From NCBI GenBank assembly GCA_903813345.2, contig CAIIXF020000011.1, positions 6,906,571-6,970,570 of the forward strand: DNA of 64,000 nt, written 5' to 3'. The notes beneath the pieces were generated by a model that was not told the DNA's origin, did not search any database, and was given only the letters and a program-made list of their open reading frames with translations. This stretch comes from Owenia fusiformis (Eukaryota > Annelida > Polychaeta > Sabellida > Oweniidae). Below are positions 7,291-62,704 of the stretch, one piece after another. A program made the translations under genes and the position numbers. Within the stretch, counting starts at the first letter, position 1. The number at the start of each line of letters is the position of its first letter.

Positions 7291-8490
7291 AAGGGAGGGA
7301 AAAGTGAGTGAGTTAGTGGGTGGTTGAGTGAGTGAGTGAGTATCTAAGCTGGCAACAGGAGATTGAGACAAAAATAGTATAACTGAACATTTTTCTGATT
7401 TTATCGTTTTAGCTTACGCATGAATCTTACTAAATGTATTCATATATGATGGAATTCTACTTACTTTTCAAACAGTTGAATTGATTAGATTTGATGCGTA
7501 AAATCAACAACATTTATGTTCACATTGTAATTATGAAAATGAGGTTAAACTTTTAATATTTTATGCGATCTAATTCTCATCACATTTTTCAGATGACCTA
7601 TCTCATTCTGGAAAATGGCATCGAATATCATACTGCAATTTTTCCATTACAACGTATCATAATATGTACTATATCAATACAGTATTTGCTGTTTTTGAGA
7701 ATTGTATCAACAAATGATGTATTCATGAAACTGGGTACAATAGTGGATCAAGCTGGGTACGATAGTGGGAGATTTTCATGGTATAATCAGGATTCATTCC
7801 ATTTTTGAGAGACACTTGCTCCTGTTTTTAGCGGGACCTCCTCATGTTTTCAGCGAGGCCTCCTCATGATTTCAGCGGGGTCTTTGCTTTTTTGCTCCTC
7901 TAGAAGCTGGGCCTTGAGAGATATGATAAAATTGAAATATAAAGTGTTCTGTAAAGCTTTAGGAAGTAAAACTCAGTACATTTTATTTCAAATCACTACC
8001 ATTATTTCAACCACAGGACAACGTCGTTCTTCACCTATAACGTATAGAAATATATAGATAAAGATTCAAGATGATACTTTTCTCTCTTCAATTGTCAAAT
8101 AAAGAACCATAGAACGGCCGCTCGTGATACTTTTTTCCATCAATTGCCTTTTTTAGTCTCAATACCATGTAATCATTGCGGAAAATTAAAAAGAAAACGT
8201 TTTGTACATCATACAATTCAAGTAAACAAAAGACAACCCATCACTTTTTTTATTCCTCGCGATTTCAGCGGGAACTTGCTCGCGACTTTGAAATCATAGC
8301 GGGGCTTTGGATACTACCGTTGCATGTAGTACAATAGTGTACATTATGTAGTACTTGAATAGCCTGGTTTATATAATATTGAAGGGCATGCTAATAGAGA
8401 TTTTACATTTTGGCATGCCATCTCCTGATACCTTGGCAAACTAAGGTGAACTAAGGTCATGTGATCATTTATATCCAATCAGAATGCATT

Positions 8491-9688
8491 TCTGCCACAA
8501 AGTGATAGCATAGTGATCCAGTGATGTTTGCAAACTTAGAACTGGTATCCTAACAAAATAAATTCATACTACTCTGATGCCTGAGTCACATTTGCTCCGT
8601 TTATTCAATTTTGAACAAAATACTCAATCATAAGGGCGCCGTAGTGAAAATCGGAGCAATCGGCATTACTTATACACAGTCCATACCAATAGCCCATTTT
8701 CAGTTTAGCAGTTTCTAAGAATGGTTTACACATTTTATAAAGAAGGGTTTCCAAAAATGCTCCATCATCAGTAGAATACCATGACCCTGTTTTCTTGCAT
8801 CAAAGACACAGACATGTTTTTAGATGCGATGTGTATCAGAATGAAGATGCTCTGGCTTTTCCTAAATAACTTGGCGGGAGCGTGCAAAGTACTTTCTTGA
8901 TCACTAAAAATAAATGCCACTGTCACAGGAACTCTGCATTTAATGTAAATCCATTGAATATTAATCCACATGCTTAAAGTTAAGTAAGTTACGAAGATCA
9001 GATTCTTTAATTAACACTTGATACAAATCTATATTGATATTCAAAACCTCTTATTTTGAAGAACCAACTATCAATCATCAGATTTGATTTCTGCCACAAA
9101 GTGATAGCATAGTGATCCAGTGATGTTTGCAAACTTAGAACTGGTATCCTAACAAAATAAATTCATACTACTCTGATGCCTGAGTCACATTTGCTCCGTT
9201 TATTCAATTTTGAACAAAATACTCAATCATAAGGGCGCCGTAGTGAAAATCGGAGCAATCGGCATTACTTATACACAGTCCATACCAATAGCCCATTTTC
9301 AGTTTAGCAGTTTCTAAGAATGGTTTACACATTTTATAAAGAAGGGTTTCCAAAAATGCTCCATCATCAGTAGAATACCATGACCCTGTTTTCTTGCATC
9401 AAAGACACAGACATGTTTTTAGATGCGATGTGTATCAGAATGAAGATGCTCTGGCTTTTCCTAAATAACTTGGCGGGAGCGTGCAAAGTACTTTCTTGAT
9501 CACTAAAAATAAATGCCACTGTCACAGGAACTCTGCATTTAATGTAAATCCATTGAATATTAATCCACATGCTTAAAGTTAAGTAAGTTACGAAGATCAG
9601 ATTCTTTAATTAACACTTGATACAAATCTATATTGATATTCAAAACCTCTTATTTTGAAGAACCAACTATCAATCATCAGATTTGATT
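8491..9688. repeat. 599-bp direct tandem duplication inside the 3.2 kb element
   Basis: 8491-9089 is repeated at 9090-9688 with no differences noticed on reading, including a 67-codon open frame that is identical in both copies. The near identity points to a recent event or gene conversion. I do not regard the open frame as a gene: it has no recognisable domain and no partner sequence. Confidence 0.92.
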
Positions 9689-12749: not shown

Positions 12750-12905
12750 ATTTCGTCAGTAGAACGGCAAAAATAAGAATGACATTTGTATATTTCAGAT
12801 TTTTTAGTTTTTTGTGCAATAAGCCTATGCCGTCTTGTAATTTGAAGAATTTCAGCCATGTTAATCTTGTTGAAAATAACATGGCAGAGAAACATCCAAA
12901 TATAT
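12750..12905 (-). mobile_element. Fragment related to the TA-flanked MITE at 59.6 kb
   Basis: Read on the minus strand, about 140 bp (GGCCTCTTATAT, CTCTGCCATGTTATTTT, TTAACATGGCTGAAA, ATCTGAAATATACAAA) follow the same order as the centre of the 59608-59973 element. The terminal repeats are missing here. It lies just downstream of the receptor pseudogene stop. Confidence 0.6.
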
Positions 12906-12968
12906 AAGAGGCCATACACTTTACAAGCCAATCTAAAAGCAATCCAAGATATACAAATTGCGACTGAT

Positions 12969-13784
12969 TCAAGATACAAATTGCTTTAACCCTTTCCGAA
13001 ATGATTTTCCTAGCATGGAGTATATTACAAAATTGAAGGACGAATTGCACGCGAGGAAAAAATCTGACAATGATCCCAAGAGTAAATGAAAATCTAAGGG
13101 TAGAATAACATCCAAATGTCTTAATAATGACACGATTGCAATCATAACAATGACGTGATTTCTTTCCTCAATTTCTTTACTAGTCAGTTTCTTAAGTTTA
13201 GATCGAGAGTTTTGGATGGACTTAACTAGTCTCAAATTAAGGATACAAACGGTTACAAAAGGTCCACAAGACCAAAATATGGCATTTAAAATCACACCAT
13301 ATATAAGTTTATAGATTGGATTACAGTATAATGAGCAAGTAACACCAGACCTTTCAAAGTATCTAGGTATATTGCAGAGGCATGCTCCAACTACTAAGCA
13401 TCCAACAATCCATTTCATTCTTTTGACAGTTAACAGTGTCTTCGCACGGAGTGGTTTCGTTATATGTATGTATCTGTCAATGGTTACCAAGACAACCATC
13501 CAAAATGTGATCGCAGATGCTGTTGACATGATTGGTAGCAGGACATTGGAATATGTGACCATAGAAACAAACTTAGCTCACAACTTTATAAATTCATTCC
13601 AGTGATTATAGGTTATCTTTCGAAGAAGTATCAGTAGCAGGAATGTTGAGTCTGTTATCGTAAGAGTCTTAAGAAGAAACACTCTTGTGTTTGAAACTTT
13701 CTCCTTTGAAAGTACCAAGAATGACATTATATTTCCTAGATGTCCAATCCCAATTACAATATATGATAACACGGTATCAAGTAC
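12969..13784 (-). pseudogene. Class A GPCR pseudogene, TM1 to C-terminus
   Basis: Encodes a rhodopsin-like seven-helix receptor body. Visible parts, in order: TM1 with GN (GIGHLGNIMSF), TM2 with LKTLTITD, TM3 with DRY (TIDRYIHITKPL), Cys residues of extracellular loop 2 (GVTCSLYC), a basic third loop, and a TM7 variant of NPxxY (NSSFNFVIY) followed by a short basic tail. A TGA (13578-13580) interrupts the frame between TM2 and TM3. The TM6-TM7 stretch is about 30 residues too short and lacks CWxP, so a deletion or shift is likely there. The N-terminus continues in frame at 17504-17379, across a transposon. The ligand cannot be told; the style recalls peptide (FMRFamide-like) receptors. Confidence 0.85.
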
Positions 13785-15067
13785 AAAAGAGCATGTAAGA
13801 TATGGCAAGCATTTTCAAAGGGCTATATCTTTAGTTCTAAGAATACTTTAATCACAAAAACAAATGGTTATACTAGATCCATGTCTTGTCTTCAATAAAT
13901 GACAGTAGGATGATAATCAAGTTGATTGGATTATCTCTTAAGCTGTCCCTAATCCACCCATCATCGCCAATTTTCCCTAATTCTGACGCAATTTTCACCA
14001 AAAATGCAGCATTTTATTTCAGCTTTTATGGCAAAATTACAATTTATTGTAAGGAATGATTTACCTCTAAAAAGGAAAACTTAATTACTTTGGGATTAGG
14101 ATAATCCGAAAACAATGATTTTTTAGGCCGAATTTTCGACCTAAAAGTAGCAATTTTTTAATAAGTTTAATGCACGAAAACATTGAGCTATGTCACATGA
14201 TTGATCTCCAAAAAGAAAAAATATGATCTAAATGAGATAAGCATTATCTGCTAATCCATTTGTCATTTTTACCTCATAGGTCATGACCTTAGTGTATAGT
14301 GTATGAAAAGATGTCACTTAGAACGACATTAAGATGTACCCTATTTTATGCAATGATGTTTATAAATAGAGTTATATATGGTCCATAGATGGCATGATAT
14401 ATTCTATATGGGTGAGTGCTTAATACCCTGTGTATTCATTGTTGCATAATTGCGTATTATAGAAATGAGCATGGATATGTCAACATGACCGTGTCGTGTA
14501 AAGTATGTACAGTAAAACATAAATGTGTTTAACACCTAGTGAAACACATAAGATGAAACACTTGTTTATATATTTGTATTGTATAGTGTAAATGGATATT
14601 TGAAATGTTACACATTTGCGATGTTTCAAAACATGATTCAATATATCTTTTTTGAATTAACTCTTCCCGTGTGTATCTTTCTTTATCATCAACCATCTTG
14701 GATGTTTCGAAAGTGCCTTCTGTAAAGGGGTTTATAGGTGACCACGGGCTTTGAAAGCACATTATAAGTAGTATTCGCGAATTCAACTAACAGCTGCCAG
14801 ATCAACCTACTATTTTATGCCTCATTAAATATTTACCTGCCACTATTTCATTCATATTAAAATGAATTTGCCATCAAAAGTAGGTTAAATCATCGCCTTT
14901 TACCCAACATATGACATCATGAATACTTTCAAAGTGCAGTCTAATACTGAGCGAGCCAAAAATGTAGCCCAAACAAATTCCGCATCTGCTAAAGTGTTTT
15001 TTCGCATAATAAAACCTTGTTTAATGTTCTTTCATTTTATTAAGTTTAAATGGTCGGGATTTTATGG

Positions 15068-15409
15068 TTATAATAGTACAATAACGTCATTTCTAAGGGC
15101 GATATAGTGAAATATTGGACCGAGGGCCGAAGGCCCAAGGTCCAATATTTCACTATATTGCTCGCAGAAATGACGTTATTAGTATTATTACCACCGTTAA
15201 CGACCAGGACTGAAACAGCAAGAAAATCTTACGCATTGAACGATATCTAATTTCCCGGGGAAAATTGCCGGTCCAGAATATATTCTAGACCGGTCCATAT
15301 GGACCACCACTATGACGTCACACATTTTTCTGGTCAATATAGTAAAATAAACGCCTTCTAAACTAGCACTAAAACCCTTAGAACTGGCCCGGCAAGGTGG
15401 TAATAATAC
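15068..15409. mobile_element. Hairpin-rich MITE-like segment
   Basis: 15080-15180 is a long near-perfect hairpin: AATAACGTCATTTCT pairs with AGAAATGACGTTATT, and GTGAAATATTGGACC with GGTCCAATATTTCAC. A second inverted pair, GTATTATTACCACC at 15182-15195 and its complement at 15396-15409, bounds the following 230 bp. The relation between the two is unclear; no target duplication was established. Confidence 0.6.
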
Positions 15410-16009
15410 GAAACATGGTCCAAAATGCCAGCCTCATCTCATGACTACGGGCTATCTCTGATATAATGTCAACCCCTACAACAAGTTGGAGAAAAATTTC
15501 TGTGACCGTGAACTAACAACCTCAACCGACCAGTGCAGGTCTGCCTGAAGGGTGAGGCTGAAATTTGTAGAATGGCCATAGAATTGTGACCATGAGAAAT
15601 GGACCCATGAAACATGGTAAAACGCAAAAAGATATTACATGGTAAAATTAACCAAATATGATTTCAACTCATACTGGATGAATGAGTTTATATCATTTCT
15701 TTTGATAGCATTTTTGTCTCACCCTGTAATTCATTTTATTTTCACACTTATTCATTTCAGCCTGCCAAACAAAAATCTAGGTTGAATAGTCAAAACCAGG
15801 AACATGTAATTACAAAGAACTATTCAGTATATAAATAGCTCTACGTGAATGACACAACTGTTTTATACACAAACAATATAAGGTAAAATACAGGATTAAC
15901 CCTATCCATAACGCTGAGTAAGTCACTAGCTGAGTGTTTGAAACAGTGTAACAAACAAATTATTGTGACACTTAGCTGCCCTCTATTTTGTTATTGTATG
16001 ATATTAGTA

Positions 16010-17003
16010 CAGGGTGTCCCAAAAAAAACAGGACCGTAAGAAAGTTGAATAACTTGGTCAATTTTGCATATTTTGCCTTGAAATTTTAGAATTATTTAGT
16101 TCATCCAATGTGAATTTTGTTCTGAAAGTTTGATGATAGTCTGTTTATTGTGTCAAAAACTACAGTCCTTTACAAAACATGCTCAAATTGGGCACTTCTC
16201 CTCTCTATGCACAAACGAATCCTGCGAACAAAGTTGTAAATGACCCTGACCTATACACATTAATGTGGATGGTAAATATTGGGGTAGTTATTGCCCTCTT
16301 AAGATTGTTAGGGGCCTGTCAGTATACACATTGGCTTTGAGAAATCCTCAAAGATAAAATTTGGGGGATTTAGATCAGGCGAATGAGGTGCCCATATGGT
16401 TTGCGTTCTGTAACTGATGAGCTGACCACCAAAGCATTGCCTAAACCATTTCAGCATATCATTTGCAGTGTTGGGTGGTATTGGCTTGTTGAAACCACTG
16501 CTTAATTATCTCCTTAGGTGTCCCTTCTGGTGCTTAGTGACCTCCAAAACTTGGTGAGAACTTACTGGTCCTTGTTCATGGTGATAGCAAGTCCCCAGTC
16601 ACCTTCGAACCAAAAGGGACTTATGATTCCATGTTTCCTCATTGCCACCCAGGGAGTGCATTGTTCAGAATGCAATGGGTGCTGTAACACTTCATCAGGA
16701 GGATGTAAGCCCCAGTAGCAATTGTTCTTGGAACAAACTTGTCCATTCAGAAAGACATGTGTGTAGGAGGATCATCAACAGCTTTGTTCGCCGGCTTGAA
16801 TTGTGCATAGAGATGCGATTTGCACATTTGGGGCATGTTTTGTAAGGAGCTGTAGTTATTGACTCAATTGGTAGATTATTATCAAACCTTTACAACAAAA
16901 TTCACATTAAATGAACTAAATAATTCTGAAATTTCAAGGCATAATATGCAAAATTGACCGAGTTATTCAACTTTCTTACGGTCCTGTTTTTTTGGACACC
17001 CTG
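16010..17003 (-). mobile_element. Mariner-family transposon relic
   Basis: Terminal inverted repeats begin CAGGGTGTCCCAAAA and continue through AGGACCGTAAGAAAGTTGAA; TA flanks both ends (16008-16009, 17004-17005). Minus-strand translation gives pieces of a mariner transposase: WVAMRKHGIISPFWFEGDWG, then further on APHSPDLNPPNF, the WxPxSPDLxPxDF segment around the last catalytic Asp, with Asn in its place here. Several stops and frame changes and a short interior show that it is inactive. It is nested in the 13785-17378 element. Confidence 0.88.
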
Positions 17004-17378
17004 TATGAAGCACTTAATAATATCAGAAAAAATTAGGAAAAAATCACGAAAAAAATATCAAAAAGTAGGTTCATAATTAACTTTTTCCTTTTACAGTTTA
17101 AATCATGTCTAAAAGTTCAATACAACTTTGCACTAAAAATTATTAAAAAGGCCTGCATTTTTGGTGAAGATTGCGTAAGTATTAGGGAAAATTGGTGAGG
17201 ATGGGTGGATTAGGGACAGCTTAAGAGATAATCCAATCAACTTGATTATCATCCTAATGTAATTTATTGAAGATAGGACATGGATCTAACAGAACCATTT
17301 GTTTTTGTGGTTAAATTATTTTTCAAACTAAAGATATAGCCCTTTGAAAAATGCTTGCCATATCTTACGTGCTCTTTT

Positions 17379-17504
17379 AAAGACTTTGAACTGATCGTCC
17401 TCATAGCTATCGGGCTGTGGAATATTTGTGGAACTAAAACTTATATTTTCATTTCCAAAATTAGTAAATATGACTGAGCTTTGATGAAACGTTATATTTT
17501 CCAT
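17379..17504 (-). pseudogene. GPCR pseudogene, extracellular N-terminus
   Basis: Exactly 42 codons from an ATG at 17504 to the edge of the transposon, reading MENITFHQ to EDDQFKVF. It has N-glycosylation sequons (Asn3-Ile-Thr, Asn20-Ile-Ser), acidic residues before the membrane and no hydrophobic stretch, as expected for a peptide-GPCR N-tail. The frame continues directly into VLDTVLSYIVIG (TM1) at 13784. I see no splice acceptor at that junction, so an intron is a poor explanation. Together the two pieces span about 313 codons, a normal receptor size. Confidence 0.78.
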
Positions 17505-18640: not shown

Positions 18641-18762
18641 CTATGTAGGGGCAATCTAGCAACTGGGAATCACGGGATACTGTTTCATGATAATTGTTAT
18701 GTGCATTATGCATTGAAAAATACGTAAAATTATTACATATTTCAAGATTTTTTTGGAAAAAG

Positions 18763-19777
18763 TCATTTCAAGCCAAAACTATGACAGTAAATTGAATTCT
18801 AAGCACAGATATCGATGAATAAGATTACATTCATTAAATCAGAATAGATTATGCATTGCATTTCCGTTTAATAAAAACGCACCGCTCACTTTTCAAAACT
18901 GGCTCCAACTTGGAGCCAGTTTGCAAATCAGCTCTGTCGTGAAAAGTCTATGTTCGACCTATTTTCACCTATGAAGCCTTGATATTTTTTCTTGCTTTCT
19001 TCATGAATTCATAGGTAATTATATTGCCTATAGTTAACCATTCACAAAATATCAAAATTCGCTCTGTTTCCTACTTTTCCCTGACATTTTGTCAATTTTG
19101 GCCTGTTTGTCTCACGAAGGGATCGTATTCTAGCACACGAACGGACCATATCATACGGAGCGGGATGTGGACCGTGATATGGTAACATGACCAGCCGGTG
19201 TCGACTTATGAGACACATTATACATTTATATCTGAGTGTCACCCATTTGGTCAAATATTACAATAAATACATATATTGCACTTAATGTGAATTGCAAAAT
19301 GCATATGGTCGAAGACAAGTGTTACAATAAATACATATATTGCACTAAATGTGAATTGCAAAATGCATATGGTCGAGGACAAATGTTACAATAAATACAT
19401 ATATTGCACTAAATGTGAGATGCATATTGCATAATAAATACATATATTACATTTAATGTGAGTAACATGTTGCATATGGTCAAATATTACAATAAATACA
19501 TATATTGCACTAAATGTGAATTGCACATGCATATGGTCGAAGACAAGTGTTACAATAAATACATATATTGCACTAAATGTGAATTGAAAAATGCATATGG
19601 TCGAGGACAAATGTTACAATAAATACATTTATCACATACTATGTAAAATTCCAGCAATCTGATTGGTTGGTTACTGTGTGAGTTTTTCCGTCTCACACGG
19701 CCGTCTCACACGTTACTAGAGGCAACCAGTGATGACGTTTCAAATTTTTAAAGAAAACAGTGTGACGTCATTTCAAG
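18763..19777. repeat. 1,015-bp tandem duplication, copy 1
   Basis: TCATTTCAAGCCAAAACTAT starts both copies (18763 and 19778). They are nearly identical; one difference noticed is T at 19448 against A at 20463 (AATACATATA versus AATACAAATA). The unit includes the GGCTCC-AACTTGGAGCC hairpin, a 64-bp satellite and a CACACGGCCGTCTCACACG palindrome-like stretch that is the empty site for the MITE found in copy 2. Confidence 0.93.
19255..19630. repeat. 64-bp satellite block (ATATTGCACTAAATGTGAAT)
   Basis: About six units of AATAAATACATATATTGCAC followed by TAAATGTGAATTGCAAAATG and CATATGGTCGAAGACAAGTG. It recurs at 20270-20645 in the second copy of the duplication and as a fragment at 21617-21690. 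Minus-strand frames over it are repeat artefacts. Confidence 0.9.
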
Positions 19778-21099
19778 TCATTTCAAGCCAAAACTATGAC
19801 AGTAAATTGAATTCTAAGCACAGATATCGATGAATAAGATTACATTCATTAAATCAGAATAGATTATGCATTGCATTTCCGTTTAATAAAAACGCACCGC
19901 TCACTTTTCAAAACTGGCTCCAACTTGGAGCCAGTTTGCAAATCAGCTCTGTCGTGAAAAGTCTATGTTCGACCTATTTTCACCTATGAAGCCTTGATAT
20001 TTTTTCTTGCTTTCTTCATGAATTCATAGGTAATTATATTGCCTATAGTTAACCATTCACAAAATATCAAAATTCGCTCTGTTTCCTACTTTTCCCTGAC
20101 ATTTTGTCAATTTTGGCCTGTTTGTCTCACGAAGGGATCGTATTCTAGCACACGAACGGACCATATCATACGGAGCGGGATGTGGACCGTGATATGGTAA
20201 CATGACCAGCCGGTGTCGACTTATGAGACACATTATACATTTATATCTGAGTGTCACCCATTTGGTCAAATATTACAATAAATACATATATTGCACTTAA
20301 TGTGAATTGCAAAATGCATATGGTCGAAGACAAGTGTTACAATAAATACATATATTGCACTAAATGTGAATTGCAAAATGCATATGGTCGAGGACAAATG
20401 TTACAATAAATACATATATTGCACTAAATGTGAGATGCATATTGCATAATAAATACAAATATTACATTTAATGTGAGTAACATGTTGCATATGGTCAAAT
20501 ATTACAATAAATACATATATTGCACTAAATGTGAATTGCACATGCATATGGTCGAAGACAAGTGTTACAATAAATACATATATTGCACTAAATGTGAATT
20601 GAAAAATGCATATGGTCGAGGACAAATGTTACAATAAATACATTTATCACATACTATGTAAAATTCCAGCAATCTGATTGGTTGGTTACTGTGTGAGTTT
20701 TTCCGTCTCACACGGCCAAGGAGGATTGGCTCCCAGAGTGCACCACCGATATTCTGTCCCATATATGGGTATGTCGTAATACAAAATTCGAATTCAAACA
20801 GCCGCCATTTTGTTCACTTCAACATTTAAATCGTGAATTTTGGTCTTATTTCCAAACGAAAAATTCCAAAACTCACAAGAAACGATCGAGATATTGGTTC
20901 GAATCTTTTGAACTGTTTATTTTGAATTTATAGTCGGTTTTAATTTCAGAAAATAACGACATTTCGACGTTTTCATTGTTGGAAAATATCGAGTTTCGAT
21001 CCTGGGAGCCAATCCTCCTTGTCACACGGCCGTCTCACACGTTACTAGAGGCAACCAGTGATGACGTTTCAAATTTTTAAAGAAAACAGTGTGACGTCA
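19778..21099. repeat. 1,015-bp tandem duplication, copy 2 (with MITE insertion)
   Basis: Same order as 18763-19777, offset 1,015 bp up to 20716, then broken by the 305-bp MITE and resumed at 21022 through GTGTGACGTCA at 21099. Confidence 0.93.
20717..21021. mobile_element. 305-bp MITE, 9-bp target duplication (CAAGGAGG family)
   Basis: Terminal inverted repeats CAAGGAGGATTGGCTCCCAG, perfect over about 20 bp. The 9-bp duplication TCACACGGC is at 20708-20716 and 21022-21030. The uninterrupted site is present in the first copy of the tandem duplication. A second family member is at 27327-27514. The 9-bp duplication suggests a Mutator-like source; no coding capacity. Confidence 0.94.
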
Positions 21100-27630: not shown

Positions 27631-30600
27631 ATGGATAGACAAGGTAACAAACTTCTTGAAGATAATATTTTTATTATATTTAAATAAAATTCTTGTATTA
27701 TATAAGTAAAAATCAACTAATATTTATTTCCACTGGGGTAAATGTAGTAGATCTCTAGTATAATTTCAGTTAGGCCTAATTTGCAAAATTTTACAAAACC
27801 ATTTATGGCGCAGAATCTGCATGTGGAAAGATTAAATTTTTATGATTTGTAAATGCAAAATAATTGGTATCAGGAAAATGTAACGTAGGATTACTTCTCT
27901 AATGAAAACATTGAATTTCAATTGCTGGTTTCAGGCGGATTCTTGCGAATTCTATTTGCGATATGTATCGCTGCGTGCATCGAGAGCACGTTTGGTGTTA
28001 AATGTACCGAACCACCCGATGCATTTGTGGGGAGATTCAAAATCTCACTAGTTTACGGACGAGAGGTGGACATCAGTAAAGACGGACTGACTGCAACGGG
28101 ACCTGCAATCCCACCTGGACCAACTTATGGTGGTGGACGAGCATTCTGTAAGTACATAATTATGTTTATTGTTATATTCTAATGCCACTCTGTCACAGTT
28201 GACATTTGATTTGATCTATGGCAACCGTAAAGCGGCCAAAACTTCCCAAAATCGAGATATACGCAGCATAAAATATAGGAAAAGCAATACGATGTGGATC
28301 TCGAAGCTACTGAACCAGTTATGGTCAAACCGAGACCAAGGTCAAAATAAATTGCCATCAATTAAATAAAGAGGCACAGACTGCAGCATCGACATTTCTT
28401 AACATGTGGCATCTCTGATATATTTATTACAGGGGAACTAGAGAAAAGGTTGCCGTTTGAACAGATTCATTGCACAAAACATTCGCTGACGATTGTGTTC
28501 GGGCAGCAGTTGATTGGGTAAGAAATATGGTTCATATTCCATCTCATGAATGCCTACACTCCCCTCTATACGTTTGGCAACCGGAAGTTGTTGTTTTTGG
28601 CTGTATAATTGTACTTAGATCTAGATTTTTACTGAATTTGAAGTTGAATTTAAAGGAGCATAAGAAATTCCAACTATCATGTTTATAGATCTCAACAAGA
28701 TAAGCTTCCCTTTTTGTGAATGGTGATTAAAGCCTACCAGACAGAGTCAATTCATGTATTTTAAAGCTAAGCGCACAATTTTTTGAAAGATGTGTGAATG
28801 TCTAGTCACCCTTTCCACCACCTGTATATTATCTTAAAATCTGTGACCAATTCATATGTATCTTAAATTTGTACTAAACGTGGCTATTAATACTGTTAAG
28901 TACATGTACAGCCGCTATTTGTATTTTGATATGATAATTTATAATAAAATAAACTGAATAAAAAAGTTTTGATTGGACAGTATACAATATCAAAGCCTGT
29001 CAATATTTTGATCATAATTTTGTTAAAATTAGATATTAAAAAGGATTAAGTGTAATTATATAATGATGGCTGTTTGTAAGGGTTGGAAGGGGACTTGAGA
29101 GACTTTATGGACACTCTGTACATTGCTTAAAGAGTTTTTACTATTTCTACAGACCACATGATGAAACAGAAAAAGGATACCAGTGTTTGACTCTACGGCA
29201 CGATGGAACCGGTGGTGATCTGATTGGTCAATTCGTGTATGACCCGCGTAAGTTTTAAACACAATTCTCAATCCATTGTTTTCAGATAGTAAAAGTAAGA
29301 AAGAATGTGGGACATACAATATTGGAATCAATCTTGCAAATGTTTTCCTTACAATCCTGATGCTCAAATAGAGAAGTTATTGTAATTTTATTGACGAAAT
29401 TCTAAATAACTAGTCAGAACTGAAAAGAAGACATAAAGCGGCAATTATTTCGAAACTTCAAATCAATTCGTCTCCCTTCTTTCTCTTACCTTACTTAAAT
29501 GAAAGAAAATGTAACTTCCATTACAATAATCACAGAAAATTACAATAAGAAAAATACACATATGGAAGTTGTATAAACCTAAAAATGTGAAATAAAGATC
29601 AACCTCAGAAGGCTACGAATAACACAGAATTGCTTTGAATATTTTTTATAACGATCTTGATTCTTTGACATGTTCAACGTTTTGAATAATCCATTGTGAG
29701 AGATTGCAGTGTGTGATCTAGTTGGCAGTATAATCTTTGCATCAGACTATGTTTAATCTTTGCATCAGACTATGTTTAATCTTTGCATCAGACTATGTTT
29801 AATCTTTGCATCAGACTATGTTTAATCTTTGCATCTGACTATGTTTAATCTTTGCACCAGACTATGTTAATCTTTGCATCTGACTATGTTAAATCTTTGC
29901 ATCTGACTATGTTTAATCTTTGCATCTGACTATGTTTAATCTTTGCATCAGACTATGTTTAATCTTTGCATCAGACTATGTTTAATCTTTGCACCAGACT
30001 ATGTTAATCTTTGCATCTGACTATGTTAAATCTTTGCATCTGACTATGTTTAATCTTTGCATCAGACTATGTTTAATCTTTGCATCAGACTATGTTTAAT
30101 CTTTGCATCAGACTATGTTTAATCTTTGCATCAGACTATGTTTAATCTTTGCATCTGACTATGTTTAATCTTTGCACCAGACTATGTTAATCTTTGCATC
30201 TGACTATGTTAAATCTTTGCATCTGACTATGTTTAATCTTTGCATCTGACTATGTTTAATCTTTGCATCAGACTATGTTTAATCTTTGCATCAGACTATG
30301 TTTAATCTTTGCACCAGACTATGTTAATCTTTGCATCTGACTATGTTAAATCTTTGCATCTGACTATGTTTAATCTTTGCATCAGACTATGTTTAATCTT
30401 TGCATCAGACTATGTTTAATCTTTGCATCAGACTATGTTTAATCTTTGCACCAGACTATGTTTAATCTTTGCATCAGACTATGTTTAATCTTTCAACCAG
30501 ACTATGTTAATCTTTGCATCAGACTATGTTTAATCTTTGCATCTGACTATGTTTAATCTTTGCATCAGACTATGTTTAATCTGAATTTTCATCCATTTTC

Positions 30601-36219: not shown

Positions 36220-39200
36220 CAGCAAATTCACCTTACTGAGGAAGAGCAATGGAAATAGCACCAAGTGTCCTTTCACCCTTCCCAGCTCTTTCTTCGCTTG
36301 CTCTGGATCAGTTTTAGCAAGAGGTGGGTATTCCTTTTCATAGTTTTTCAACAATGTGTAGTCCAAGGCGTAGTCATTAGGTGCACAACGGAAAACCTGG
36401 AAAGAAACAAGAATAGATTCACTCAATTGAAAATCAATTCACCCAGTTGATAATCAATTCACCCCATTGGAAATTCATTCACCCAGTTGATAATAAATTC
36501 ATCATGTTGAAAATCAAAATACACCCAACTGAGAATTCAGGTCATAAGAATATGAAAAATGAGGATTTTACATACAATTGAGAATAATATCTGGATAAAA
36601 CCAGTAACAGTGATTTTCCCTAGCATTAAAGCAAGTAGGTGCAGTTAGCCACCTGAGATTAAAATCAGGCTTGCACCCACATACCCACCTGAATATCCAT
36701 TTGCATCCACTTGAAAATGAGAAAAATCATGAAAAATGAGCATATTTTGCCCAATTTTGGTCTGAATAGTGAAAATGATCATTTTGCACTCACAAGGAAA
36801 TAATCCTGTTGAGAACACAGAGTAACCTTCAGTCCTTACTTTCTTTCTACTTACACGATCATAGACAGATGTATTAGTGGCAGCATATTTCATCCACACA
36901 TCCTTATAGAAGACATCAGCGATTGGGTCAGTCATTCTCACTTTATCATGCACAGTCAGGCCTAGATGCTCCCTGAAATAAAATGTTTTTATTAGCACCT
37001 CAATCTAAACAGTGTAAACTGTTAGTGTAAACTGTTCACTGCACCATGAGCAACTAAACAATAATTGACCTCTCCATTTAATTGACCGCAGTCTTAATTT
37101 ACATTATTGCGATATAATTTTAGGTTTAGTCTAGCTACACGCCTTTGTGAATCCCCACGACACAGTTCCCCACATGTTGTGTTGGTGAAGCAAGGGTTTA
37201 TTGTATTAGGATGACCAACTCTTTCACACTGAATTTTGTCAATGTCCAATTATAGCTTTATGCAGTTATGAGTGAGTAGCAGGATTCCAAATTCACCCTG
37301 ACAATCCATATAGTATAGTAGGAACAAGGGGTTCCCATGCACCCATAAGGTGTGAATAAGTTACATACATTTTTGTAATCCATAGGGTGTCTATTTAATG
37401 AATTCATTTGTTAACATTGCCAACTAATGTCCCATAGTACTTTTATGGCGGCATTCAGTTACCATGGTTACGCATCTTTAGACATCTTACCTTGGTATCT
37501 TAAATCATTTGTAGCTCTGTCATTATTTGGTCTATAGAAATGATATTGGTACCAAATTAAACCTCGTTGAATTTCCAATAAATTTCTGATATTCAATTAT
37601 GCAAATTATCTAATTTGCACAAATTATGACGTCATCAATCTATTTTTGGTTCAGAATTTCCAACTATAGCAACGTATCTATTAGAACTGAGGCCGTATGG
37701 CAAAATTTCTGAACGGTTTTGTCCTTTATTCTATTAGAAGAAGGTAGAAGCAACATAAAAGTGAAAACAGATTCAAAATTGAATCAGTATTACGAAAGTT
37801 ATGTAACTTTCGAGGCAGCTATCGTGAATGTCATTATTTGACAATAATATACATACATCTTACCTTGGAGTCTTGAATCAATGTAGCTTCGCCATTATTT
37901 GGTCTATAGAAATGATATTGGTATCTGATTAAACCTTATTAAACTTACTATATGGTTACAATATTAAGTTATGCAAATTAGCTAATTTGCATTAATTGTG
38001 ACGTCATCAATCCATTTTTTGTTCAGAATATCGTAGTATAGCAACATATCTATTAGAACTGAGACCGTATGACAGAATGTGTGCATAGTTTTGTCCCTTA
38101 CTTGATGAGTGGAAGATATAAGCAACATTAAAGAGACAACAAATCTTCAAAATTGGATCAGAATTAACAAAATTATCCAGCTTTGGAGGAAGCTACTGTG
38201 AACGTCATTGTTTGACAATTATAAAAAGAACATTAAATTAACAAAAAAAGTAACAACCATCGTTGTTTCAATCTTATTGAGTAAAAATGTACATGTATTG
38301 AACTGAACTAATAAGTATGTGGAAAGGTTACATGCATTTTGACTATCATTCACAGGGGTCAAAACGGTTATCTCGACCCTGTATATTAAAGATCCAATCT
38401 TATAATTTACCATGCACTTTCAATGATTCATATAAATAGTATACATATAGTCTGATTTTCATCATATTCTTCATATTCTTGATTCTTAAAGCATCTGAAG
38501 TATATAGCACGATTAGAAGTGAAGATGATTCATCATATGGTTTATGTAATATTTCTAACATTTCAGATGCTATGGTAACATCACTTGATAATGAGGTTTT
38601 TACATTTTACGTTCTTAATGAGTTAAAAGGAAGTTATTCTCCCTTTGCTTTAGAGATAAATAGTCGCATGAATTTGTTTAGAAAAATTATAACTTAATTA
38701 ATTTAACCCCCCCCCTGACAGCCCCCATATTTGAAGATTTTGGTGAAACCTGGCAAAATACATTAATTATTAGGTTCCAGAAGCCCCCAGAAGCTTTATG
38801 ATGGCCCCCAGTGGCCCCAAGAATCAATACAGGGGCCCCAAGTAGCCCCAAGAAGCTATACTGTGCTCCCCAGAAGCTAAATGTTGGCCCCCAGAAGCTG
38901 AATAGTGGCCCCCAGGAGCTATACGGTGGCTCCCAGAAGCTATACAGGAAACCCTGTGGCCCCCAGGAGCTATACGGTGGCGCCCAGAAGCTATACAGGG
39001 GCCCCCAGTGGCCCCCAAAAGCTATACGATGGCCCCCAGAAGCTACACGGGGGCCCCCAGAGGCTATACTATGGCCCCCAGAAGCTATATAAGGGCCCCC
39101 AGAAACTATACTATGGTCTCCAGAAGCTATATGGTGGCCCCCAGTGGCCCTCGGAAGCTATATGATGGCCTCCAGAAGCTAATTAGTGGCCCCCAGGAGC

Positions 39201-59031: not shown

Positions 59032-59607
59032 TATTATATTTCTAATAAGTAAGCTATCAATATGTTCAGTACTGAACATTAGATCATAAATTAGGCTGTC
59101 TTACGTATGTTTGCATGATTCACCAAAGGTTTTCAAACAATATTTGTTTAATCCGTTGCGCTGGAGATTTCTCTATTTAACATCCTTTGCCTTGATAACA
59201 TTTGAACTGGACCAGACATAGTTAGTGAGTATAGATAGGCATGTTTATTCATAGATAAATTTTGATTTTGTATAATTAGTTAAAATTAAAGAGTTAAATA
59301 GTTAAAAAGAATAGTAATAATTGAAAAAATTCACCAAATGTTAAGAGACAAAGAGTGGATTATCCTATCCTATCCTTTTCAAATTATTTCTTTAATATAT
59401 ACACAAAGCATCCTTGTATCAAATTATGCATTCTTATATTTTTATATGAAAATTAAATATTCTAAATCTTCATAAAAAAATTATCAACATTCAAAGAAAG
59501 ATAATAAAACTTACAATACATGTCTTATTATACTCTTTTTGAACAATTTTCAACCACCCATATGTCAGAATTCATGATTAACATTATTGAGTTACAGTAA
59601 AATTTTA

Positions 59608-59973
59608 AATGTTTGGAACTACTTTGAATTTAAAAAATAAGCAATCAAAGGACCATGTTGAAACAGTATATGTAAAAATAGAAATATTTATACATGTCCT
59701 AACTTTTGTATATTTTAGTTTGTTTTGTAGTTTAGCTATCATATCTGTTGCCTCTTATATTTTGATGCTTCTCTGCCATGTTATTTTTGGAAAAATTAAC
59801 ATGGCTGAAACTCCCTAAATTCCAAAAGGTCACAGCTTTACTGCACATTATACATAAGTATCTGAAATATACAAAAGTTAGGACAAGTATATATGTTTCT
59901 ATTTTTTTTTATATACTGTTGCAATATAGTCATTTGATTGCTTATCTTTTAAATTCAAAGTAGTTCCAAACAT
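59608..59973. mobile_element. 366-bp palindromic TA-flanked MITE
   Basis: AATGTTTGGAACTACTTTGA continues for about 40 bp and returns inverted at 59932-59973. Inner arms (GTCCTAACTTTTGTATATTT, GCCATGTTATTTTTGG) are also symmetric. TA is duplicated at 59606-59607 and 59974-59975. Related sequence at 12750-12905. Confidence 0.88.
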
Positions 59974-60176
59974 TTACTTCTGTAATTCAACTATCATTTA
60001 TGGGGGGAGGCTATATGATTTTTGAATTAGATGAATATACTGTACTGTGATATCACAATAAAATTTCATATAAAAATGAATATGTCACATTGTTTTTGTT
60101 ATTGTATCAAGAAAGGGATGATAGATATTTAAAACACTTGGAGGCAGTATTCATTCATTACTCTTTATATTTTCAG

Positions 60177-61654: not shown

Positions 61655-62680
61655 ATGTTTGTTGTTATGATTGTATTATCACACTACCATACCCCCATAC
61701 TGTAACTTGTATTTCTTTAAAAGGGATACAAGCTACAATGAAGTTGTAAATGGAGGATGTTTGTTGTTATGATTGTATTATCACACTACCATACCCCCAT
61801 ACTGTAACTTGTATTTCTTTAAAAGGGATACAAGCTACAATGAAGTTGTGAATGGAGGATGTTTGTTGTTATGATTGTATTATCACACTTCCATACCCCC
61901 ATACTGTAACTTGTATTTCTTTAAAAGGGATACAAGCTACAATGAAGTTGTGAATGGAGGATGTTTGTTGTTATGATTGTATTATCACACTTCCATACCC
62001 CCATACTGTAACTTGTATTTCTTTAAAAGGGATACAAGCTACAATGAAGTTGTGAATGGGGGATGTTTGTTGTTATGATTGTATTATCACACTTCCATAC
62101 CCCCATACTGTAACTTGTATTTCTTTAAAAGGGATACAAGCTACAATGAAGTTGTGAATGGAGGATGTTTGTTGTTATGATTGTATTATCACACTTCCAT
62201 ACCCCCATACTGTAACTTGTATTTCTTTAAAAGGGATACAAGCTACAATGAAGTTGTAAATGGAGGATGTTTGTTGTTATGATTTTATTATCACACTACC
62301 GTACCCCCATACTGTAACTTGTATTTCTTTAAAAGGGATACAAGCTACAATGAAGTTGTAAATGGAGGATGTTTGTTGTTATGATTTTATTATCACACTA
62401 CCATACCCCCATACTGTAACTTGTATTTATTTAAAAGGGATACAAGCTACAATGAAGTTGTAAATGGAGGATGTTTGTTGTTATGATTTTATTATCACAC
62501 TACCATATCCCCATACTGTAACTTGTATTTATTTAAAAGGGATACAAGCTACAATGAAGTTGTGAATGGAGGATGTTTGTTGTTATGATTGTATTATCAC
62601 ACTTCCATACCCCCATACTGTAACTTGTATTTATTTAAAAGGGATACAAGCTACAATGAAGTTGTGAATGGAGGATGTTT
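61655..62680. repeat. 102-bp minisatellite, ten copies, 3' of the fucosyltransferase
   Basis: Units begin ATGTTTGTTGTTATGATTGT and contain AACTTGTATTTCTTTAAAAG-GGATACAAGCT, an internal dyad (ACTTGTAT against ATACAAGC). Few substitutions separate the copies. It starts 226 bp after the stop codon and may be transcribed in the 3' UTR. Confidence 0.95.
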
Positions 62681-62704
62681 GTTTATTTCCAAAAGAGGAG
62701 TCCT

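Follow-up and report, generated by a model that had tools for sequence, protein, structure and literature searches.

A class A GPCR gene of Owenia fusiformis interrupted before TM1 by a very probable Spy-type transposon

Two halves of a receptor gene and their paralogues

In the window (the whole 64,000-nucleotide stretch of Owenia fusiformis DNA analysed here, G000:C11:6906571-6970570), the minus strand carries the N-tail of a receptor (17504-17376) and a receptor body (13787-12969), with an inverted-repeat element of approximately 3.6 kb between them. This arrangement raises the question of whether the two pieces are parts of one gene, what lies between them, and whether its arrival ended the gene. 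The original prediction was that a single receptor gene had been cut in two by a transposon. The receptor features are as follows.

17376..17504, minus strand: receptor gene, 5' part with the N-tail, 43 codons counted from the ATG, the last codon being host AAA (paralogue match, E 6.1e-25)
12969..13787, minus strand: 3' part of the receptor gene, TM1 to the C-terminus, the first codon being host TTT (paralogue comparison, Pfam)
13578..13580, minus strand: premature TGA in the TM2/TM3 interval (translation, paralogue comparison)
13119..13130, minus strand: approximate place of a 48-nt in-frame deletion in TM6 (paralogue comparison)

Translation of 17504-17379 gives MENITFHQSSVIFTNFGNENISFSSTNIPQPDSYEDDQFKVF (MENITF...FKVF), and 13784-12969 encodes a GPCR from TM1 to the C-terminus, starting with VLDTVLSYIVIG and containing one TGA. 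The rhodopsin-type seven-helix domain of class A GPCRs (Pfam 7tm_1) is present in the body, where the part after the TGA was matched with an E value of 5.3e-12 (46.2 bits; cut-off 30.5). The 42-aa N-tail and the 68-aa TM1-TM2 piece, each searched alone, gave no Pfam match.

The receptor body DNA was searched against the same genome (498 Mb, 525 contigs), yielding 21 matches from 14 candidates, which comprised eight other near-complete copies and fragments. These paralogues are 73-81% identical to the window receptor at the DNA level, and all eight run through the N-tail/TM1 junction uninterrupted and with no intron there. Seven of them form a single intact ORF of 330-350 aa that starts with MENITF, MENVTF or MGNITF and continues to the C-terminus. 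On G000:C2, for example, the N-tail match (query 1-126, E 6.1e-25) and the body match (E 2.9e-149) lie 6 bp apart within one intact ORF, a pairing far beyond chance. Because every paralogue joins both parts in one exon, the N-tail and TM1 belong together and were separated by an insertion; the search for an uninterrupted receptor holding both parts thus bore out the original prediction of one gene cut in two.

The 7tm_1 domain was also found in two intact paralogues (E 1.1e-17 and 1.1e-21). With the paralogue L020 as query, a protein search of the same genome listed 121 matches, with identity falling from 76% to approximately 22-47% outside the receptor group. The best solved chains for L020 were galanin receptors, led by galanin receptor 2 (E 1.9e-11). 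The predicted product is a class A, peptide-receptor-like GPCR, and its gene is a single-exon gene. Two other decayed loci were noted: L026 (G000:C11:22841583-22842606) is a second broken paralogue, uninterrupted at the junction and broken further down by a frame change, not by an insertion, and two receptor fragments at G000:C5:14730167-14730854, directly upstream of the intact paralogue L023, are perhaps a decayed tandem copy.

When translation of the N-tail is continued into the left repeat of the element, a stop follows after 15 more codons, so that the peptide would comprise 58 residues and end short of TM1. The TGA between TM2 and TM3 that had been reported for this locus lies at 13580-13578, and the reported shortening of the TM6-TM7 stretch corresponds to 16 absent TM6 codons, with the frame kept; the body contains no frameshift. 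Judged from its sequence, the locus is a pseudogene from which a full receptor is not to be expected, because the short peptide stops before TM1 and the downstream half has both a TGA and the TM6 deletion. Beyond the receptor stop codon, a stretch at 12782-12957, beginning 11 nt past it, is a 75% relative of a palindromic stretch at 59606-59976; it may have replaced the 3' end of the receptor gene.

The insertion point and its readings as intron or misassembly

The original prediction placed the cut at 17379/13784, giving a 42-codon N-tail. At this position, however, the joined halves are 6 bp shorter than the paralogues, which read GTCTTT-CGA-TTT-GTA, GTCTTT-CAA-TTT-GTA or GTCTTT-AGA-TTT-GTA (junctions GTCTTTCGATTTGTAGTT, GTCTTTCAATTTGTACTG and GTCTTTAGATTTGTACTT). 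Shifting the cut outwards by 3 bp on each side, to 17376|17375 and 13788|13787, gives GTCTTT-AAA-TTT-GTA, which has the length of the paralogues and shares TTT with them. The window junction is then GTCTTTAAA, the element, and TTTGTACTT, and removal of the element leaves AAATTT in frame with no duplication. The right codon is TTT in six of the eight paralogues, and the left codon is AAA in none. AAATTT thus corresponds exactly to the 6 homologous bp of the paralogues, which places the element at 17375-13788 (3588 bp); no host bases were duplicated and none were removed. The N-tail is therefore as described except that it ends 3 bp further on (43 codons); TM1 does continue in the matching frame at the other end, but the element stops 3 bp earlier (13788), and the TTT belongs to the host. 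As the receptor case illustrates, the cuts of transposons that produce no duplications would be misplaced if they were located by looking for duplications.

Introner elements are repeats with inverted ends that sit inside a coding exon and carry GTAAG near one end. The element resembles them in each of these respects: a fair 5' splice site, CAC|GTAAGA, is found at 17368 in the left end, and GTAAG recurs at most of the element ends listed. Read in this way, the element would be an intron, or an introner that brought its own splice sites, and the receptor would still be expressed. Unlike introner elements, however, the other end has no acceptor, and in-frame splicing is impossible. The frame of the body is closed by a TGA at 13817-13815, and the 30 nt from there to the TTT|GTA junction hold no AG, in agreement with the earlier remark that no splice acceptor is visible; the next AG in the downstream direction has its end 49 nt inside TM1. 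A GT-AG intron whose acceptor precedes TM1 therefore cannot lead into the body in frame, and no pair of GT donor and AG acceptor able to join the N-tail to TM1 with the frame kept was found. Moreover, the paralogues have no intron at the junction, and the receptor body carries its own lesions. A spliced and expressed receptor thus has next to no probability, and on the splice signals an intron is ruled out.

A misassembly, in which two unrelated pieces were joined around a repeat, is equally hard to credit. Both junctions do lie in a high-copy repeat, the kind of place where misjoins happen (the best 40 of 198 candidates were scored for one end and the best 40 of 338 for the other). Nevertheless, the two flanks together make up one gene whose halves agree in order, strand and frame, and the target between them fits the signature of the element family. 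A misjoin would hardly be expected to produce such a match.

The element and its family

The insertion is accordingly taken as a transposon, with the following parts.

13788..17375, minus strand: very probable non-autonomous DNA transposon of Spy type, 3588 bp, between AAA and TTT of the host, no duplication (ends and target)
17074..17375, minus strand: left terminal inverted repeat, approximately 300 bp, AGAGCACGTAAG... (repeat comparison)
13788..14087, minus strand: right terminal inverted repeat, approximately 85% identical to the left one (repeat comparison)
16010..17003, no strand assigned: nested element 1, 994 bp, CAGGGTGTCC..., inverted repeats of approximately 250 bp, TA flanks (absent from all nine copies read across this point)
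15076..15402, no strand assigned: nested element 2, approximately 330 bp, many inverted repeats (absent from all seven copies read across this point)
14733..14733, minus strand: probable internal deletion point (the copies L010, L015 and L070 hold approximately 3.0, 2.1 and 2.2 kb more)

The inverted repeats as first detected were 13785-14087 and 17074-17378, 85% alike. AAA stands 7 nt (38 ends) or 6 nt (2 ends) before GTAAG or a variant of it in 40 of 41 distinct ends, the exception being L065; these 41 are the ends caught by an end motif in the fetched sequences, and variant ends were missed, at least the right end of L010 and L035, L041, L050 and L052. The five missed ends show TTT.

Joined flanks of four copies, of six that were cut, served as queries for empty sites, and the best 40 of 2514 candidate places were scored. 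One sibling insertion (left end L012, right end L039) sits in repeated sequence, and all 40 scored places align with its joined flanks along the full 187 bp or close to it; empty sites of the other three queried copies were not among these best 40. All four empty sites fetched read GGGAAA|TTTGAATA (GGGAAA|TTTGAA), without a break, and share every letter with the filled site for 40 bp to either side. A target site duplication was sought at five loci, the receptor and four copies; an empty site was available at two, and neither had a duplication. Additionally, no consistent duplication was found at the copies with both ends in hand. The assignment of AAA and TTT to the host rests on these two loci, and the triplets might also count as ends of the element.

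Insertion within AAATTT without duplication separates Spy from the other DNA transposon groups, according to a section of PMC4482050, and cgSpy of Colletes gigas is described in an excerpt of PMC11304231 with terminal inverted repeats of 467 bp. The element resembles Spy transposons in its AAATTT insertion, its lack of a target site duplication, its terminal inverted repeats (approximately 300 bp here) and its many copies. It differs in that the window copy is non-autonomous and has nested elements inside, and in that the copies read yielded no transposase. PMC4482050 places the PIF/Harbinger, ISL2EU, Pangu, NuwaI and NuwaII groups in the same PHIS superfamily as Spy, in which several groups favour AT-rich targets; duplications of the kind given for these groups in the same section (such as TWA, AT, ANT and CWG) were seen at neither of the two empty-site loci here. 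Taken together, a Spy-type PHIS transposon was very probably inserted, without duplication, directly ahead of TM1 between the AAA and TTT of a class A GPCR gene that has a single exon. The founding paper on Spy reportedly dates from 2014. The cited sections on Spy do not mention the present host, and a literature search for Spy in annelids or Owenia gave nothing relevant among the matches listed.

No PHIS-type DDE transposase could be tied to the family among L010, L070 and the PF13359 candidates examined, and membership in Spy consequently rests on target and ends. The 5.3 kb element of L010 has no frame over 88 aa. A genome search with PF13359, of which the best 150 of 269 candidates were scored and compared by eye with the best 40 scored places of each terminal repeat, placed one frame inside a copy, L070, the sole transposase-like frame found in any; it belongs to a nested element bounded by 85-bp inverted repeats of its own. 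At the PF13359 loci L068 and L069, no terminal motif was present within the 3.5 kb examined; L068 has no match to the element, and L069 has matches of 35-37 bp at approximately 81%. The nested element of L070 spans 709-1962 of that locus, with repeats 98.8% alike, a 227-aa open frame and a partial DDE_Tnp_4 match.

The original prediction of a 3.6 kb inverted-repeat transposon holds in that the element is real; in make-up it is a shell of Spy type that holds two nested elements and has probably lost an internal part. Two further elements would have landed inside the window transposon, because both blocks are absent in sibling copies. The 2-3 kb missing at 14733 are present in all three copies read on both sides of that point. 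One frame of nested element 1, APHSPDLNPPNFIFEDF, recalls Tc1/mariner transposases. Two short pieces of this element, as well as a frame upstream of the receptor gene, gave nothing in Pfam.

Several other repeats were observed in the window. A direct duplication of 943 bp (18760-19702 and 19775-20717), whose copies are 99.9% identical and separated by 72 bp, looks very recent, and a tandem duplication of 612 bp (8478-9089 and 9077-9688) is 99.5% identical. Arrays consist of ten 102-bp units with 98% matches (61655-62683) and of 37 copies of a 23-bp unit, with alternative periods of 137 and 160 bp (29731-30582). An inverted repeat (37311-39192 / 41415-39541) has arms of 1.9 kb that are 92% alike and hold arrays of GGCCCCCAGAAGCTATAC-like units.

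Age of the insertion and loss of the gene

Compared with five other copies, the window element has nine private substitutions in 1101 gap-free columns, a tip branch of 0.0103; this six-sequence estimate leaves out the copies L013, L015, L016 and L070. Its distance to the consensus is 0.016 for the left repeat (8 copies) and 0.010 and 0.012 for the middle parts (6 and 5 copies). The right repeat lies further away, at 0.048 (30 copies; nearest copy 0.037), and the right part differs by 0.030 from L010, its only full match; the right repeats compared would mostly belong to another subgroup. The element is young, about 1% diverged. Dating from the window's own repeats, which are approximately 15% apart, was rejected. 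With the left repeats of eight other copies the window right repeat shares 83-86% identity, about as much as with the left repeat of the window (over 199 bp of L070 the figure is 91.5%), so left and right forms had already diverged before the insertion took place.

The window branch of the receptor tree, in which the window and L009 group with 48% support, is long, with 0.29 neutral substitutions per site. The broken paralogue L026 was left out of the alignment, the tree and the neutral-phase tests. Omega is 0.459 on this branch against 0.442 elsewhere (LRT 0.02), and omega = 1 was rejected (LRT 11.7). As no relaxation is detectable, the gene was constrained for most of its history and died late. 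When the branch was split into a constrained and a neutral part, the best neutral time on the grid was 0.02 per site, and times from 0 to between 0.10 and 0.13 lay within 1.92 lnL, a range that includes 0.010. One premature stop was seen, where 0.49 would be expected at 0.01 and 4.9 at 0.1 (P 0.044 at 0.1).

An insertion at approximately 0.01 therefore fits as the cause of gene death, although the gene may have died earlier. The receptor may already have been a pseudogene, so that the transposon landed in dead DNA, a course of events that we consider unlikely, with perhaps the weight of a serious minority view. The codon model leaves room for it, with a neutral time of up to ten times the age of the element and a best value about twice that age, and the receptor has two other lesions, the TGA and the TM6 deletion. 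Against it stand the branch without detectable relaxation, the single stop where a divergence of 0.1 predicts nearly five, and a body free of frameshifts. The original prediction that decay came after the insertion fits the data, but an order in which the TGA or the TM6 deletion came first would fit them too.

In the sequence of events that we favour, a Spy transposase encoded elsewhere would have acted on an element without its own transposase. Cut-and-paste insertion between the AAA and TTT of the only exon, just before TM1, split the gene and would have been the event that killed it, and the two further elements would have landed inside the transposon. There is a small chance that the split allele is still polymorphic and that uninterrupted alleles segregate beside it in the species. 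The divergence of approximately 1% makes the insertion young enough for this, and since Spy does not change its target sequence, such an insertion in an exon might in principle be lost again with no scar remaining.

A literature search for comparable GPCR cases gave nothing to the point among the matches listed. The split of this receptor is a clean but ordinary gene loss by a mechanism that is already known. Its value lies in the readable record of a transposon that entered an exon without duplicating its target site, with the empty site supplied by paralogues in the same genome. The general picture is unchanged; what the locus adds is a gene loss that can be dated, in a receptor family that evolves fast.
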